A DNA stretch of 64,000 bases from a virus: the IMG/VR virus record IMGVR_UViG_3300000553_000014, positions 1-64,000 of that record, one strand, 5' to 3'. The notes under the pieces were generated by a model, which was not told the DNA's origin, searched no databases, and saw nothing but the letters and a program-made list of their open reading frames with translations. Position numbers and translations under genes: made by a program. Each line of letters begins with the position of its first letter. Position 1 is the first letter of the stretch. Shown here one piece after another: positions 1 through 60,527 of the stretch.

Positions 1-128
1 ATCTTAAGCAATGCGTATATTTATTTTGCTTAGTACCCATTGGAAAATACATAAAATAAAATATATGATTTATAATAACTTATCTTAAGCAATGCGTATA
101 TTTATTTTGCTTAGTACCCATTGGAAAT
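1..128. repeat. Tandem repeat, type A (two copies, period 81 bp)
   Basis: Two almost identical copies start at 1 and 82. Each has a core of about 46 bp in which TAAGCA and TGCTTA can pair around GTATATTTATTT, followed by CCATTGGA. The first copy begins at the window edge, so more copies may lie upstream. The core is clearly related to type C at 302-514 (shared CAAT, GTATATTTATTT and the ATGGA/TTGGA end). No ORF of note crosses it. Confidence 0.85.
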
Positions 129-180
129 GTATATTAATATGTTTTTATGTAAATATATGTTGTTATTGTTTAGTAAAAAT

Positions 181-285
181 GACCTCCAAAAAATGATATG
201 ACCATAATCCGAAGCTCCTATTGTTCAATACAAGAGTAAATCCTTTTTGCGCTTTGGAGTCCTTGGGGATATTTTCTTGGAAAGA
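181..285. repeat. Repeat type B, copy 1 (structured, possible RNA)
   Basis: About 100 bp repeated at 559-658. The ends can pair (TCCAAA near 185 with TTTGGA near 255, and a further arm TTCTTGGA near 275). Inside, CTCCTATTG and CAATACAAGAG form a hairpin. The interior from GATATGACCATAATCC to AGTAAATCC is nearly unchanged between copies while the 3' arm differs but still pairs. It is GC-richer than its surroundings. Class unknown; it matches no riboswitch or ribozyme I know. Confidence 0.7.
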
Positions 286-301
286 TATAACTTACTGTTT
301 A

Positions 302-516
302 CAATCTGTATATTTATTTCACCTAAACCATAATGGAGATTGAGATTAAATAAAATATATGATTAATATAAATTTTACCTTAACCAATCTGTATATTTAT
401 TTCACCTAAACCATAATGGAGATTGAGATTAAATAAAATATATGATTAATATAAATTTTACCTTAACCAATCTGTATATTTATTTCACCTAAACCATAAT
501 GGAGATTGAGATTAAT
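302..516. repeat. Tandem repeat, type C (three copies, period 83 bp)
   Basis: Three near-perfect copies with CAATCT at 302, 385 and 468. Each holds a possible stem CAATCT/AGATTG enclosing GTATATTTATTT and ACCATAATGG. The spacer is conserved as well, so this is a true tandem repeat and not a CRISPR. It is homologous to type A, but the pairing bases have changed. Possible origin iterons or a tandem small-RNA array. Confidence 0.85.
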
Positions 517-558
517 ATATAAATTTGGTAATTATAATGTTATACGCATTTATATTGA

Positions 559-658
559 TTTCCAAGAAATGATATGACCATAATCCGAAGCTCCTATTGT
601 TCAATACAAGAGTAAATCCTTTTGCGCTTTTGGGGCTTTGGGAGCCTTTTTCTTGGGA
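559..658. repeat. Repeat type B, copy 2
   Basis: Second copy of the element at 181-285. The 5' end TCCAAGAA pairs with TTCTTGGGA at 650-658. The central block is almost identical to copy 1, while the segment before the 3' arm differs (GCGCTTTTGGGGC against GCGCTTTGGAGTC). The two B copies bracket the type C array. Confidence 0.7.
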
Positions 659-660
659 TT

Positions 661-1040
661 GTTTAATAAATGAAAATCAAATATTTAACAAATATAAATA
701 ATTATTGATTTAACTCTGAAATGAAATAATATTCAAATTGTAAAAAATTTCAATTTTTATAAAAATTTACAAATCATAATTATTTTTTATTTTGGATATA
801 ATAACAAATATTAAATAATTTTTAAATGCTTTTTTCGCAAGTATTTTTAATATATAAACAAATTAAATATTAATTAATTTCAGAATTATAAAAATATAAA
901 TAAAATCTAAAATTGAAATAAATTGGAATTAATAAATGAAAATAAAATCTAAAATTGAAATAAATCGGAATTAATTTACAACAAAATCCGATTTATTTCA
1001 GAATAATTGCGAATTTAATAAAATTAAAATAAAAATCAAT
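661..1040. other. AT-rich non-coding zone with direct and inverted repeats (candidate origin/unwinding region)
   Basis: No gene is seen. A segment of about 36 bp (ATAAAATCTAAAATTGAAAT and following) occurs twice, near 899 and 942. A perfect 13-bp inverted repeat follows (GAAATAAATCGGA near 957 and TCCGATTTATTTC near 990). A further inverted repeat around 735-775 pairs ATTTGTAAATTTTTATAAA with its complement. Very A+T-rich DNA beside a repeat array and directly before a primase-helicase gene fits a replication origin, but this is position-based inference. Confidence 0.4.
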
Positions 1041-1067
1041 TAAGTTTATCATAAAATAGTGGATATA
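1041..1067 (+). promoter_or_regulatory. Phage promoter motif before primase-helicase
   Basis: The sequence ATAGTGGATATAAAA with GGATATA at 1061-1067 matches the motif found before most operons here, but the upstream T-rich box is weak. The start codon is 35 bp downstream. Confidence 0.55.
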
Positions 1068-1101
1068 AAAATAATATAAAAAGGATATAATTAGGGAAAA
1101 T

Positions 1102-4100
1102 ATGTTGAACAAACTATTAACAGCTCAAGACATAGATAATAACCAAAAATCAATTGAATCTCAAATAAATTTAAACGTAAGTGAATTTGTTAAAACTTTG
1201 CTCAAAAAGAAATTGAAAGAAGTTCGAGACTTAAAGAAAATTTCGGGAGAAGATGGTGGAATTTTAAGCAAAGAAGAGATAAATCACATAAAACTTGAAA
1301 TTATTTCGGGGAAAGTTGTGGAAGAGTTCCGAACCAATCAAAAACAGATTTTAGAGTCAAAACGAGATAATTACTTCATTTTGAGGCAGACCATTCAAGA
1401 TTTGAACGAACTTAACGAGTTTTCAGCTGAAATAGAGCGAAATGAGATTCAAAAGGTCAAAAATTTTTTAGATTTTCGCGGATTGACCACTAAATCTTTG
1501 GGATTTTATGAAAACTATCGAAAGGTGAACGAAATTAGAAATAAAAACATTATATTATATATTAATGAATATAAGAATAAAACACTATCATTCAAAGAAA
1601 ATGAGGAAAAATTACTCATTAATCTCCAAGAATTATATAAAATAGACAAAAGTATTGATGATATTGATTTATATGAACGTTTCAATATGGAATCTAATAT
1701 TGATATGTCAAATAAACTTGCTGATATTTATTTTCATAAATATGCTAATGGTGATAATAATTCAAATTTAATTAATAATTCAGCAACAAATTTAGATAAT
1801 CCATTAGAAAAATTAATATCAACTCAAATTATATCAAATAAAAATTTCGCATTATTATTATTATCAGGAAAACATAATCAAAGAACCTCATTTATTACAA
1901 ACAATGCTGTAACTTGTTTAAAAACTACTTACACAACAACAAAAACTAATCAATACATTTATTCAACCAGAACTTTAGGAGAACTTTTATTAGAAATAAC
2001 TAATGAAAAATTATCTTATCAACAAAAAGTTGAAAGACAACAAATTTATATAACTTATGATGGTTCACGTCCAACTGTTGATGAATATTATAAATGGAAT
2101 GGTTTACAAATTTTTGATATAGATTTAAAATTATGGAATGGAAGTATTGATTTATTGAAAAGAAAACTTTATGAATTATTACAAGATTTTCATTGGTTTC
2201 TTTGGATTTGTAAATCTGCTTCTGGAAAAGGTATACATATTTATACAAAAGTTGCTCCACCTCATCATGTTTATATAAAACCCTCTGATAATGAATATAT
2301 AACAAAATATTGGTATAATGTAAATTATGCACACAAATCATCAATTATTTATGATTGTCTCTATAGATTATCAAATGATGATTCAAACACAATAAAATTT
2401 GGTTTAGATTTTGAAAATAAATTTTTAGATAATGTTGTTGGTAGAATTACAACAGGTATTCGTTTAACTTATGATGCAAAACCATTAATTAATAATAATT
2501 TTATGGATTTACATGTTGGTTTAGGATTAAGTCAAACTTTAGATGGTTTTACATATCAAAAAACAATTAATGAAGTTTTATTTCGTGAAACACCTTTTCA
2601 TAAAAAATTAATTGAAAAAATATATGGATTAATTGTTGATGACCCTGAAAACATAATAGAAAATAAATCAGAAGAAATTGATTTAACAAAATTTATAACT
2701 TTAGGTACTGATATTTCAAAAGTAACCGCAATGCCAAGAAGTTCAATAAATTATACAGTTCGTTATAATGTTTGTAATACTCTCGCAGCTCTTTTTGGCA
2801 AAGATGGATTACCCTTAGCTCATACAATATTAGATTCAACAGTTTGTAAAAATGTTGGAGAAATAAATTCATTTTATTCTTGTGCAATTTCTAATATCAA
2901 AAAACCATCAAAAATGGGATTAGATATTTTAAGAAAATCAGGAGTTATAAAACATATTGAACCAGAAGCTAAACAAATTATTGATGATGTTTATAAAAAT
3001 CATATTAAAAAAATGATTGATAATTCGTTAGATAATAAATTAATTCGTGAACATATTATTCTTGGTAAAAATGAATATTTATCAGATAGACAAGAAATTT
3101 TATTAGACCCGAAAAAAGGTGGATTAACAAATTCCAAAATAAATATAATATTCTCACCACCAGGTTCAGGTAAAACTGAATGGATTAAAAAATTAGCTTC
3201 AGATGGGAAACGAATTCTTTTAGTTTTACCTTATATTTCAGTTATAAAAAATAAAGTTGAAATTGACCAAGAATTAATGAAAATATTTGAATGTTATTAT
3301 GGAAGTAAAGATATAAAACAAATAGAATATGGAATAAATGCAGTTACAACATTTGATAAATTTTCTCGTTCAAATTATGATAAAATTTCTAAAATGTTTG
3401 ATTATATTTTTATTGATGAATCGCATTTATTATTTACATCATCTTATAGAATCGAAGCAACTTCAAATGTTATTAAAAAAATAAAAGAATTATTTTTTAT
3501 TTCATCAAATGACCCATTTGCAGCGAAACTTTGTCTTTTAACAGGTACTGAAACAGGAGAATCATATTTTTTTGGAACTGTTGCAAATATAATAAGAATC
3601 CATAAAGAATCATTAAATAAATCAATGGAATTTCTTATTTGTGATGATTTATTAGATAGTATTACTCGCCTCGCCTGCTCGGCGGCAGAACTAATTCAAA
3701 ATAACCACCGTCTACTTATACCTACAAACAAAGGAGAAATATATTCAGAGAAATTAATTGGAATGATTAGTTCAATCCTTTCCCGTGTACCTAAATATGG
3801 ATATTATAAACGTTCAAACACAGACCAAGAAATTTGTCAATTAATTAATAATCATAATACAATTGGTGATTATGAAATTGTATTTTGTTCAAATTATCTT
3901 AGTGTTGGTGTTGATATTAATGATTACAAGCCCCTCGCCGTTGGCTCGGGAAAAACTGAATTAAATTCAAATAATAATTCTCAAAAAATTGAATTAAATT
4001 CGGGTGAAAATCAAATTAAATCTAAGAATGAATCTGAGGATTATATGAAATTTGCTTCAATTTACCTTGGACCATTTTCAGGGTATGAAATTGAACAATT

Positions 4101-5391
4101 TAATGCAAGAATTAGGAGAACTGGAATTAAATCAATTTATTGTATTCAAACACAAAAAGCAGATGGAACAACTTCTGATGAACTTTTAGAAGAACCAAAT
4201 TTACTTTTACATATAACTGATGAAGATAAAGATAATTTTTTAGATGATAAACAAATTTCAAAAGCTAAACAAGAATTTCTTGCTCAATATGACCCAATTT
4301 TACATAAAATAGTTACACCTGGGTTTAGTTTTATTAATGGTAAAATTAAATTTAATCTTGAAGAGTATGAATTAATTTCATTTGAAAATAAATATAATGA
4401 TTGTATGCAACACCCAGTGAAAGTTGCACGCGAATTATCAAAATATGGTTATAATATTAGTGTTTCAACAGAATATATTGGATTAAGTCCTGAAAAACAA
4501 GAAGAATTAAAAGCTATTGGAATTGAAGCTTCAAAAAATGAAAAAATTAAAAAACATGGATTATTAGTTGGAACTTTTTTAGAATTAATAGAACAAAATT
4601 CTTATATAAATCAACATGGATTAGAATTTACTGATGTTATTGGTTGGATAGGAAAACATCCAGATGCAATAAGAGAAGACCGTGAATTAACAAAATTTAT
4701 TGAAGATGAAAATAACCCTGGAACTAAATTAGAAGTTATAAATTATATTAAAATTGAATTTGATATATTTGCCACTCCAATTTCAGTTAGTTGCAGGAGT
4801 AAAGAAGCATTAGATTTAATGTATAAACCAGCAAAATATTTAATTTCAAAATATTCGGTTACAAAATGCCAAGAAATTATATCACAATATATTGATGAAA
4901 CAGGAATTTTAAAACAAAAACTTTTTAAACGTGCTATAAATTTATTAAAACTTGTAGATTCATCTGATGCAAATGAACTTGCAGACCCTTTAGCAAAAAC
5001 ATTAGAAAAAATGTATGATTTTGTTGATAAATTTGAAACAAATAAAGATTATCGTATTGGATATAATTTATATAAAGCAACAATTGATGAATGGACAAAT
5101 AATTACATTGATATGCTTGGAATTAAAATAAATACACAATATGGATATGATAAATTAAAAGATTCTTTAACAGAAATGTTAGCAGATATTGCAACTAAAA
5201 ATACTTCCAAAAATGGTATAAAATTTATTTATAATAAATTACCAGACCAAGATAGTAGTTCTGTTTTAAATAGAAGAAGTGTAGATTCAATGATTGAAAG
5301 AATGTTTGCAATTACTTCAGATATAATAAATGGAAATAAAGCAAATGATGCTCGAAATAAACATATCATATTAATTCAGCAAAATTTTTGA
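1102..5391 (+). CDS. Primase-helicase fusion (AEP-type primase + SF2 helicase)
   Basis: A 1,429-residue protein likely to prime and unwind DNA in phage replication. Residues about 335-460 look like an archaeo-eukaryotic primase/PrimPol core: FDIDLK (D-x-D) near 339, SGKGIH (S-x-H) near 374, and VGRITTGIRLTYD near 446. A helicase follows: Walker A SPPGSGKT near 685, IDESH near 772, and motif VI-like QFNARIRRTG near 1010. The order primase then SF2 helicase recalls herpes UL9-like origin-binding proteins; that is inference. Residues 1-130 are coiled and charged, and their codon use looks more GC-rich than the rest. Residues about 940-975 include a translated GC-rich element and a repetitive N/S/E-rich stretch, probably an inserted loop. 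It lies directly after the repeat array and one promoter. Not DnaB or DnaG. Confidence 0.8.
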   Translation: MLNKLLTAQDIDNNQKSIESQINLNVSEFVKTLLKKKLKEVRDLKKISGEDGGILSKEEINHIKLEIISGKVVEEFRTNQKQILESKRDNYFILRQTIQDLNELNEFSAEIERNEIQKVKNFLDFRGLTTKSLGFYENYRKVNEIRNKNIILYINEYKNKTLSFKENEEKLLINLQELYKIDKSIDDIDLYERFNMESNIDMSNKLADIYFHKYANGDNNSNLINNSATNLDNPLEKLISTQIISNKNFALLLLSGKHNQRTSFITNNAVTCLKTTYTTTKTNQYIYSTRTLGELLLEITNEKLSYQQKVERQQIYITYDGSRPTVDEYYKWNGLQIFDIDLKLWNGSIDLLKRKLYELLQDFHWFLWICKSASGKGIHIYTKVAPPHHVYIKPSDNEYITKYWYNVNYAHKSSIIYDCLYRLSNDDSNTIKFGLDFENKFLDNVVGRITTGIRLTYDAKPLINNNFMDLHVGLGLSQTLDGFTYQKTINEVLFRETPFHKKLIEKIYGLIVDDPENIIENKSEEIDLTKFITLGTDISKVTAMPRSSINYTVRYNVCNTLAALFGKDGLPLAHTILDSTVCKNVGEINSFYSCAISNIKKPSKMGLDILRKSGVIKHIEPEAKQIIDDVYKNHIKKMIDNSLDNKLIREHIILGKNEYLSDRQEILLDPKKGGLTNSKINIIFSPPGSGKTEWIKKLASDGKRILLVLPYISVIKNKVEIDQELMKIFECYYGSKDIKQIEYGINAVTTFDKFSRSNYDKISKMFDYIFIDESHLLFTSSYRIEATSNVIKKIKELFFISSNDPFAAKLCLLTGTETGESYFFGTVANIIRIHKESLNKSMEFLICDDLLDSITRLACSAAELIQNNHRLLIPTNKGEIYSEKLIGMISSILSRVPKYGYYKRSNTDQEICQLINNHNTIGDYEIVFCSNYLSVGVDINDYKPLAVGSGKTELNSNNNSQKIELNSGENQIKSKNESEDYMKFASIYLGPFSGYEIEQFNARIRRTGIKSIYCIQTQKADGTTSDELLEEPNLLLHITDEDKDNFLDDKQISKAKQEFLAQYDPILHKIVTPGFSFINGKIKFNLEEYELISFENKYNDCMQHPVKVARELSKYGYNISVSTEYIGLSPEKQEELKAIGIEASKNEKIKKHGLLVGTFLELIEQNSYINQHGLEFTDVIGWIGKHPDAIREDRELTKFIEDENNPGTKLEVINYIKIEFDIFATPISVSCRSKEALDLMYKPAKYLISKYSVTKCQEIISQYIDETGILKQKLFKRAINLLKLVDSSDANELADPLAKTLEKMYDFVDKFETNKDYRIGYNLYKATIDEWTNNYIDMLGIKINTQYGYDKLKDSLTEMLADIATKNTSKNGIKFIYNKLPDQDSSSVLNRRSVDSMIERMFAITSDIINGNKANDARNKHIILIQQNF
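3667..3690. repeat. GC-rich patch related to the 28-bp element
   Basis: CTCGCCTGCTCGGCGGCAG is a sharp GC-rich island inside the AT-rich primase-helicase gene, read in frame as LACSAAE. It shares CCTCGCC and CTCGG with the identical pair at 3928 and 12382 and can fold on itself. Possibly a diverged copy. Confidence 0.4.
3928..3955. repeat. 28-bp GC-rich element, copy 1 (inside CDS)
   Basis: The 28 bp containing CCCCTCGCCGTTGGCTCGGG and flanking A-runs are identical to 12382-12409. Here it sits in frame in the primase-helicase gene, translated as KPLAVGSGK, directly before a repetitive linker. Its GC content contrasts with everything around it. Confidence 0.8.
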
Positions 5392-12383: not shown

Positions 12384-12409
12384 GCCCCTCGCCGTTGGCT
12401 CGGGAAAAA
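12382..12409. repeat. 28-bp GC-rich element, copy 2 (intergenic)
   Basis: Identical over 28 bp to 3928-3955. It begins at the stop codon of the preceding gene and is followed by a short tandem array. The pair CTCG/CGAG-like arms make it weakly palindromic. Confidence 0.8.
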
Positions 12410-12525
12410 TCAGATAAAATTTGATAAAATCGGATAAAATTTGATAAAATCAGATAAAATTTGATAAAATCAGATAAAATCAGATAAAATCAGATAAAAT
12501 TTGATAAAATTTGATAAAATCAAAT
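12405..12525. repeat. 10-bp tandem repeat array
   Basis: About a dozen units of ATAAAATYWG (ATAAAATCAG and ATAAAATTTG alternating irregularly), followed to 12565 by copies of TTAATAATTC/T. There is no ORF in it. It could be slippage-made DNA or a protein-binding array; it lies at an operon break, but no GGATATA motif is present, so the following genes may be read from upstream. Confidence 0.85.
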
Positions 12526-38275: not shown

Positions 38276-39718
38276 ATGCACATTAATAAAGATTTAATTG
38301 AAAGAATAAAAATAACAGCTAAAAAATCATTAGCAAATAAAAGAAAAGTTGGAGCAGTTTTGATTGATGAAAATAAAGAAAATCCAGAAATTTTCGTTAT
38401 TTATTCTGATGGATATAATAGAATTAATGAAAAATTATTACCTTATCCAATTGAAAATTCTAAAAATATAACATTTGATTATGTTCTTCATGCTGAAGAA
38501 GATGCAATAATGAATTATGTAAGAACATTAAAAAATAATAATGTTGGAATACGAAATTTAGTTATGTATAATACATATTCTCCTTGTTATCAATGTTCAA
38601 AAATGATTGTTGAATTAGGAATTAAAAAAGTTGTTTATCTTGAAGAACATAAATCAAATTTTATAACTCCTTCAGTTGAAGAAGGTTATTCTCCAAAAGA
38701 ATTTTTAGAAAAATCTGGAGTTGAAGTAATTCATTATAAAGAAGAAGAAATTGAAACAAAAGAAGTTGAAACAAAAGAAATTGCAATAATTTATCATTCA
38801 AAAGATGCTGATGGGTTTATGTCTGCATTTTTATTACGAAATTATTATAATTTTGATGCTTGCAATATTACATTATTTCCATATTGTTATGAAAAAGAAG
38901 CTGAATGGATGTATGGAAATTTTGATATTTATTTGTTTGGAGATATAACACCAACTATAGAATGGTTAGAAAATAATGTTGAATTATTTAATTCACATAA
39001 AAAAATTATAAAAATTTATGACCATCATGAAACAAAATTTAATGAAATATTTAAAATAATTGATAAATATTCATTAGTTATTGATTATCATTTTTATCCT
39101 GATAAATCAGGAGCAAAAATTGTTTATAATTTTTTACATCCAAATCAAAAATTTAATGAAATAATTGATTTAATATCATTATATGATACATGGCAATTTG
39201 ATGCTAAAGATTTTGACCCTGAATTAAAAGAAAATGTAATTGCATTTGATTTACAATTAAAACAATTAAATAAATCAAATACTTATTGGGAATTTGCAAG
39301 TTTAATGAATCAATTAATTGATGAAGATGAAAAAAGAATAAATCAATTTGTTATTGATTCAATTAAAAAAGGTAAAAAATTATTATCTGAAATGCAAATT
39401 GAAATTCAAAAAATAATAAATTCCGGAATTTATAATGAAACAGGATTATTTATTTATTTTGGCAAACCTGAATATTTTATAACTGAAAAAATATATCAAC
39501 AATATCCTGAAACTAAATTTATTATAGCTATGAATAATAAATTAAATGAAGATAAAATATCATTTAGTGTACGTTCTAAAAAATATAATTGTGTAGATTT
39601 TGTAAGGCGATATTCAAAAGATGGAGGAGGTCATTTAGGAGCTGCTGGATTCAATGTAGAAATGTCAGAAGGTTATCGAATAATAGAAAGTTTAAAAATT
39701 TTAACATTAAATAATTAA
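38276..39718 (+). CDS. Deaminase-DHH phosphoesterase fusion
   Basis: 480 residues. Residues 1-155 are a cytidine/dCMP deaminase fold: VLHAEEDAIMNYV (H-A-E near 72) and SPCYQCSKMI (P-C-x2-C near 103) hold the zinc and catalytic Glu. A short repetitive acidic linker (IETKEVETKE) joins residues 170-480, a DHH phosphoesterase: YHSKDADGFMSAFL (D-x-D near 177), IYDHHETKF (DHH near 249), LYDTWQFD near 300 and the DHHA1-type GGGHLGAAGF near 451. So it should both deaminate a cytosine nucleotide and cleave a short oligonucleotide or cyclic nucleotide. I know of the parts separately but not this pairing. First gene after a promoter. Confidence 0.85.
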   Translation: MHINKDLIERIKITAKKSLANKRKVGAVLIDENKENPEIFVIYSDGYNRINEKLLPYPIENSKNITFDYVLHAEEDAIMNYVRTLKNNNVGIRNLVMYNTYSPCYQCSKMIVELGIKKVVYLEEHKSNFITPSVEEGYSPKEFLEKSGVEVIHYKEEEIETKEVETKEIAIIYHSKDADGFMSAFLLRNYYNFDACNITLFPYCYEKEAEWMYGNFDIYLFGDITPTIEWLENNVELFNSHKKIIKIYDHHETKFNEIFKIIDKYSLVIDYHFYPDKSGAKIVYNFLHPNQKFNEIIDLISLYDTWQFDAKDFDPELKENVIAFDLQLKQLNKSNTYWEFASLMNQLIDEDEKRINQFVIDSIKKGKKLLSEMQIEIQKIINSGIYNETGLFIYFGKPEYFITEKIYQQYPETKFIIAMNNKLNEDKISFSVRSKKYNCVDFVRRYSKDGGGHLGAAGFNVEMSEGYRIIESLKILTLNN

Positions 39719-49967: not shown

Positions 49968-50012
49968 AAGAAATTCAGTTGGTGAATATAATGGTTCGAA
50001 TCCATTTTTCTT
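49968..50012 (+). ncRNA. tRNA-like element without anticodon arm
   Basis: AAGAAA (49968) and TTTCTT (50007) can form an acceptor-like stem. Between them TTCAGTTGGTGAA is a D-arm-like hairpin with the typical AGTTGGT loop, and ATGGTTCGAATCCAT is a T-arm with the classic TTCGAAT loop. There is no room for an anticodon arm. It may be a decayed tRNA, a processing signal or a tRNA mimic. It overlaps any upstream-extended start of the next gene. Confidence 0.4.
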
Positions 50013-53238: not shown

Positions 53239-53294
53239 TAGGGGGAAAATGGATATGGAAAATATTTTGTATGGTTCGAATCCATACTCCCTCA
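53239..53294 (+). ncRNA. tRNA-like element without anticodon arm
   Basis: TATGG-TTCGAAT-CCATA (53270-53286) is a canonical 5-bp T-arm, followed by CTCCCTC which pairs with AGGGGG at 53240-53245 as an acceptor stem. Between them AAAAT and ATTTT enclose a GG-containing D-like loop. There is no anticodon arm. The first element, at 49968, has the same TGGTTCGAATCCA. Confidence 0.4.
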
Positions 53295-53344
53295 CGAAAT
53301 TTGTATTATAATTTCTCTATCACATCCTGGTATCTGTGTAAGTT

Positions 53345-60113: not shown

Positions 60114-60210
60114 ACGCACCAGTAAATATAACATATATAATGTATATAAAAATTTTGTAGGTTATTACTCTTATATATTAAAAATATATTATATGTATTT
60201 ACTGGTGCGT
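60114..60210. repeat. ACGYACCAG palindrome, copy 2
   Basis: ACGCACCAGTAAAT opens at 60114 and ATTTACTGGTGCGT ends at 60210. The inner sequence can pair almost throughout, leaving a loop with TTTTGTAGGTTATTACTC. Near-identical inside to copy 3, 7 bp away, but the arms have C-G where copy 3 has T-A. Confidence 0.85.
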
Positions 60211-60216
60211 TTATAT

Positions 60217-60314
60217 TACGTACCAGTAAATATAGCATATATAATGTGTATATAAATTTTGTAGGTTATTACTCTTATATATTAAAAATATACTATATGT
60301 ATTTACTGGTACGT
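60217..60314. repeat. ACGYACCAG palindrome, copy 3
   Basis: ACGTACCAGTAAAT at 60218 and ATTTACTGGTACGT ending 60314. Tandem duplicate of copy 2 with both arm bases changed together. Confidence 0.85.
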
Positions 60315-60371: not shown

Positions 60372-60527
60372 ACGTACCAGCATATATAGATATTTAATAT
60401 TAACGTACCAGTAAAATATCTCCAAAATTATTATATATGGTATTTATCAAGGTATTTACCTTATTATAATAATATATTATATAATTTACTGGTACGTTTA
60501 TTATTATACTATTGATTACTGGTACGT
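60372..60527. repeat. ACGYACCAG palindromes, copy 4 (nested pair)
   Basis: Outer arms ACGTACCAG (60372) and CTGGTACGT (ending 60527) enclose inner arms ACGTACCAG (60403) and CTGGTACGT (ending 60497). The centre is AT-rich. The 700 bp from 60041 to 60740 contains these elements and three promoters (one minus, two plus) but no further gene. Confidence 0.8.

Follow-up and report, generated by a model that had tools for sequence, protein, structure and literature searches.

Phage T4 oriE has 12-nt iterons, and oriF and oriG consist of a middle promoter together with an unwinding element; the role of the oriE iterons is ill defined and none has been proven (PMC3016281). In the satellite PLE, a repeat-rich non-coding region is needed for replication (PMC7145576). 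The phage considered here belongs to a group distantly related to T4 (jumbo group 2.2, with PTm1; PMC7824862), and a limited literature search found no mapped origin for this group. The stretch of DNA analysed here (the window) makes up the initial 64 kb of a virus record of 88,302 bases that begins inside an A unit of a repeat array. This array occupies a non-coding gap of 1,373 bp before a primase-helicase gene, the largest intergenic gap of the joined assembly described below.

Layout of the array and its genomic context

The repeats lie at positions 1–658 of the window, and the order A-A-B-C-C-C-B reported in the first-pass annotation was confirmed together with its coordinates. The units are as follows.

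1..46, + strand: A unit 1; possibly an assembly variant, as contig L005 has unit U1 here
82..127, + strand: A unit 2; 46 bp identical to A unit 1, spacing 81 bp
180..280, + strand: B unit 1; imperfect dyad, GC-richer
294..376, + strand: C unit 1; left edge divergent
377..459, + strand: C unit 2
460..530, + strand: C unit 3; tail altered to AATATATAAATTTGG, with promoter-like TATATAAAT at 516-524
556..656, + strand: B unit 2
632..655, + strand: terminator-like stem-loop with a T run, closing B2; 1 found vs 0.2 expected

The annotation had also given the periods correctly (81 bp for A, 83 bp for C), as well as the GC-richer B units of about 100 bp that flank the C array at 180–280 and 556–656. 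The C register starts at 294, 377 and 460 (98.6% identity over 140 bp, E = 6e-67). The proposed homology of A and C likewise holds, with CAATNNGTATATTTATTT common to both and an alignment far above that of shuffled sequence; A, C and U1, a unit seen on a second contig, are mutually homologous (z about 5 to 10 vs shuffles). B is an unrelated family, for which no alignment to A/C was found, and its two copies are 83% identical with ~58 nt invariant between them. On a larger scale, A-A-B (3–280) matches C-C-B (379–656) at 76%, and identity is near-perfect inside each block while divergence is seen from block to block (unit periods of 81–83 bp, block spacings of 124 and 212 bp). The A/C/U1 units carry an 18-bp core, and both this core and that of B are conserved while the flanking parts diverge. 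Tandem duplication followed by local homogenisation would account for A = A, for C = C = C and for the A-A-B/C-C-B repeat.

The missing left side can be read from the second contig, IMGVR_UViG_3300002933_000010 (L005, record G001, 58 kb), which ends inside C and has 366 identical bases in common with the window's record. There, a 441-aa gene is followed by a terminator hairpin and then by U1, A, B and C, with U1, composed of GTATATTTATTTCACCT and a long hairpin insert, occupying the place of the window's first A. Since the window's record starts inside the array, A-A is not the true left end, and there are two possible accounts of the window's first A, an additional copy and an assembly variant. 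Numbers of A and C units are given as assembled, and copy number is uncertain because both contigs break within the array. A minus-strand gene rich in P/T/V/E repeats is split between the two remaining contig ends, the end of L003 and the start of L017; its reading frame, which contains PVTPTE and PVEETTTA repeats, appears continuous across them. Because this one interrupted gene appears common to the contigs' other ends, we infer that the genome is a single circle of about 146 kb, and every genome-wide statement made here depends on that two-contig join. A chimera of two contigs, considered as the cause of a composition step, is unlikely in view of the 366-bp identity, the gene order common to this genome and its relatives and the frame apparently crossing the other junction.

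Several further features were seen elsewhere in the window. Positions 38276–39718 encode one protein with matches to a dCMP deaminase family (residues 15–167) and to a DHH phosphoesterase family (165–474), an apparent fusion. Two tRNA-like sequences, at 49970–50012 and 53240–53295, have a perfect T-arm GGTTCGAATCC with no tRNA called, the former reading as acceptor, D-arm and T-arm with the anticodon arm missing. Three hairpin elements (60114–60210, 60218–60314 and 60401–60500) fold strongly, with z from -5.0 to -6.6, near the convergence of two gene arms and close to the GC-skew maximum. Their arms are ACGCACCAGTAAA/TTTACTGGTGCGT or ACGTACCAGTAAA/TTTACTGGTACGT, a C-G to T-A compensatory change, and the third element has a different interior.

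Repeated boxes, unstable DNA and the adjoining primase-helicase

Between the start of the array and the end of the primase-helicase gene, the following further features were located.

15..26, + strand: GTATATTTATTT box 1
96..107, + strand: GTATATTTATTT box 2
308..319, + strand: GTATATTTATTT box 3
391..402, + strand: GTATATTTATTT box 4
474..485, + strand: GTATATTTATTT box 5
661..960, no strand: AT-rich stretch, candidate unwinding element; lowest stability of any 300-bp segment in the joined 146 kb (nearest-neighbour energy)
793..801, + strand: TGGATATAA promoter-like motif inside the unstable segment, 308 bp ahead of the start of the primase gene
956..1000, no strand: AT-rich palindrome with 17-bp arms
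1060..1090, + strand: promoter motif GGATATAA of the primase gene in two copies, at 1060 and 1083
1102..5391, + strand: 1429-aa primase-helicase

The 12-bp GTATATTTATTT has five copies in the joined 146 kb, or six with the window's first A included, all on the + strand and only within the array gap. Compared with an iteron origin, the region thus has directly repeated sites with a common core, namely five boxes in one orientation, and, by a small margin, an adjacent easily melted AT-rich segment. The stability lead of 661–960 amounts to -0.997 vs -1.003 kcal/mol per step for the next segment; among 400-bp segments, the lowest stability in the joined 146 kb belongs to the one beginning at 680. 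Helically phased repeats of 17–22 bp are lacking; classical iterons are of that size, and the 81–83 bp periods are unlike those. As to promoters, the phage motif ATGGATATAA shows strong enrichment in front of genes, and between genes it is found on the + strand only: 29 intergenic GGATATA sites (window 794–63235 and L017–L019) lie on that strand at a median of 46 bp before the start codon, against 308 bp for the TGGATATAA site at 793.

The annotation had described the neighbouring gene as a primase-helicase that resembles origin-binding proteins, a resemblance that proved generic. The product carries a superfamily-2 helicase domain (ResIII; also by fold search) and AEP-primase-like motifs, FDIDLK and SASGKGIHIY, read from the alignment. 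The fold search returned superfamily-2 helicases, with HSV-1 UL9 one of many at rank 47, and Pfam and PDB sequence searches for origin-binding homology gave generic helicase matches only. Archaeal-primase fold matches of the primase region were not significant, with a poor model (mean pLDDT 50). Relatives of the protein occur in PAU, Tenacibaculum and Chryseobacterium jumbo phages, and the phage is related to the PAU and Tenacibaculum types. A GC-rich 20-bp sequence, CCCCTCGCCGTTGGCTCGGG, is present in identical form at 3931–3950 and 12385–12404 of this 22% GC genome, one copy sitting within an in-frame insertion of the primase gene that the relatives lack.

Taking the one-orientation boxes confined to the gap, the adjoining least stable DNA, the largest gap and the primase-helicase next to it, we tentatively favour reading the array region as a lineage-specific replication control region acting at the DNA level, most likely an iteron-type origin or an origin-like site. 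We envision that the primase-helicase, or a phage protein acting with it, would bind the repeated boxes; that the AT-rich DNA of 661–1050 would then open, perhaps aided by transcription that starts at the TGGATATAA motif (793); and that the primase-helicase would load at the opened segment. The B units might serve as boundaries, B2 stopping read-through transcription from the array before the melting segment. Against an origin stand the four array-less relatives, a skew optimum about 11 kb into the window, the 81–83 bp periods, a rival repeat at 12,405–12,515 and the small stability lead.

Relatives, skew and competing readings

In the four array-less relatives, which have an orthologous primase (64–66% identical) in the same gene order, the gap measures only 86–94 bp and holds a terminator-like hairpin and no array; two of the four, L023 and L025, look near-identical at the gap. 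Gaps above 300 bp number zero in the relatives' 24–48 kb records and two, elsewhere, in a 64-kb record. In viral and in bacterial or archaeal genomes, matches to the B core came solely from the overlapping contig, and DNA matches to phage and plasmid records included none that were useful. When relatives were sought through GTATATTTATTTCACCT or CAATNNGTATATTTATTT, the matches listed were single and unrelated. Judged by these comparisons, the array region is lineage-specific. The CAATAAGTATATTTATTTCCCCTTATTG element is present in some other viral contigs, once per locus inspected. The idea that terminal inverted repeats flank the array, as in a mobile element, was considered and rejected, the flank similarity not being significant (20 and 64 of 300 shuffles).

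Cumulative GC skew, which the annotation had proposed as a check on an origin at the array, does not point there: plain GC skew has no sign change at the array and tracks gene strand, falling to its minimum at 14.5 kb of G001 (43 kb from the array, at a gene-strand switch) and reaching its maximum near 64 kb of the record. Third-position GC skew with gene strand controlled supports an origin/terminus model that 0/60 permutations reach. With all genes, its best origin lies about 11 kb into the window (favoured range 6.8–14.3 kb), and the array falls short of this optimum by about 9 log units. Leaving out the primase and nuclease genes broadens the interval to -3.7..14.3 kb and brings the array within it; this exclusion was chosen after seeing the result and therefore carries little weight. 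A step in AT skew does sit at the array, yet it is present on both strands of each contig; being common to both strands, it is uninformative on fork direction, and it may reflect gene class. None of the skew evidence localises the origin to the array. Because the skew-based estimate falls nearby, an intergenic tract of about 11 phased 10-bp repeats (GATAAAATTT/GATAAAATCA) at 12405–12515, possibly curved DNA, counts as a rival origin candidate.

The array might instead encode tandem small RNAs, as the annotation had also suggested, in the form of composite (A/C)n-B transcripts in which B would supply the body and terminator and TATATAAAT at 516 a late-type promoter before B2. B2 indeed ends in a terminator-like hairpin and T run, about 58 nt are the same in both B copies, TATATAAAT belongs to a motif type enriched upstream of genes, and the terminators of the upstream gene and of B2 bracket the array. 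Set against a promoter and terminator for each unit, one terminator and one promoter-like site were seen. B1 lacks a terminator comparable to that of B2. As single sequences, most units fold about as well as shuffles, with C3 (z -3.1) and a longer B2 segment (z -2.1) as exceptions; the A/C/U1 consensus fold has z near 0 on both strands, and that of B is only weakly better than shuffles (z -0.7 on the + strand, -1.7 on the - strand). The annotation's observation that bases in possible stems differ together is not supported by the alignment, as the CAATG/CATTG stem shows zero covarying pairs at homologous columns and the C units break two of its five pairs. Rfam gave no match for the array units at any useful score, and the confinement of the B core to the overlapping contig also speaks against this reading. 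We consider small RNAs unlikely, and the absence of RNA-structure conservation in the units fits protein-binding DNA. As between the annotation's two options, the origin gains from the DNA evidence, with the array-less relatives and the skew against it, while little beyond the B2 terminator is left for small RNAs; the array region resembles a DNA control site or an origin more than it does a group of small RNAs, neither being proven.

Lineage-specific satellite-like DNA, spread by tandem duplication and homogenisation and serving no selected function, would agree with the four relatives that lack the array, with near-perfect identity within blocks and divergence between them, and with the other repeats that the genome holds. 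It sits less well with the conservation of the 18-bp and B cores amid diverging flanks and with the placement of the array before the primase, adjoining the least stable DNA, and we regard it, too, as improbable. Control of primase transcription without origin function, with the repeats as operators, B2 terminating read-through and GGATATAA at 1060 and 1083 driving the gene, would suit the two motifs directly before the gene, the insulating B2 terminator and the terminator-like hairpin in the short gap of the array-less relatives, but the array ends 400 bp upstream of the GGATATAA promoters, far for operators, and relatives have the same gene without it, which leaves this reading rather doubtful.

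Returning to the favoured DNA-level control region, it could in its most specific form be a modular origin in which one repeat family, the A/C/U1 boxes, alternates with another, the B dyads, recently gained before a primase-helicase whose relatives initiate without the array; we give this version little credence. If it were true, origin and replication enzyme would be exchangeable separately. If the region is an origin, the four array-less relatives with the same primase could test the need for repeats in the choice of start site; if it is merely a lineage-specific control region, it is of modest interest.

Comparison with known origins and RNA loci

The array shares with phage small-RNA loci its non-coding nature and one terminator-like site; unlike them, it is without structural conservation, an Rfam family or homologues detected beyond the overlapping contig. 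With iteron plasmid origins and the RepA_N origin of the PLE satellite it has in common a repeat-rich non-coding region beside replication functions (PMC7145576), but its neighbour is a primase-helicase rather than a Rep or RepA_N initiator, and its period is much longer. Like the T4 origins, it combines direct repeats, an AT-rich unwinding candidate and a phage promoter motif; it differs in its units of 81–83 bp, in its two alternating families, in its position away from a transcription-strand switch and in being known from sequence alone. As a candidate whose membership is not established, the array thus appears closest in kind to the T4 origins and to the repeat-rich PLE origin.
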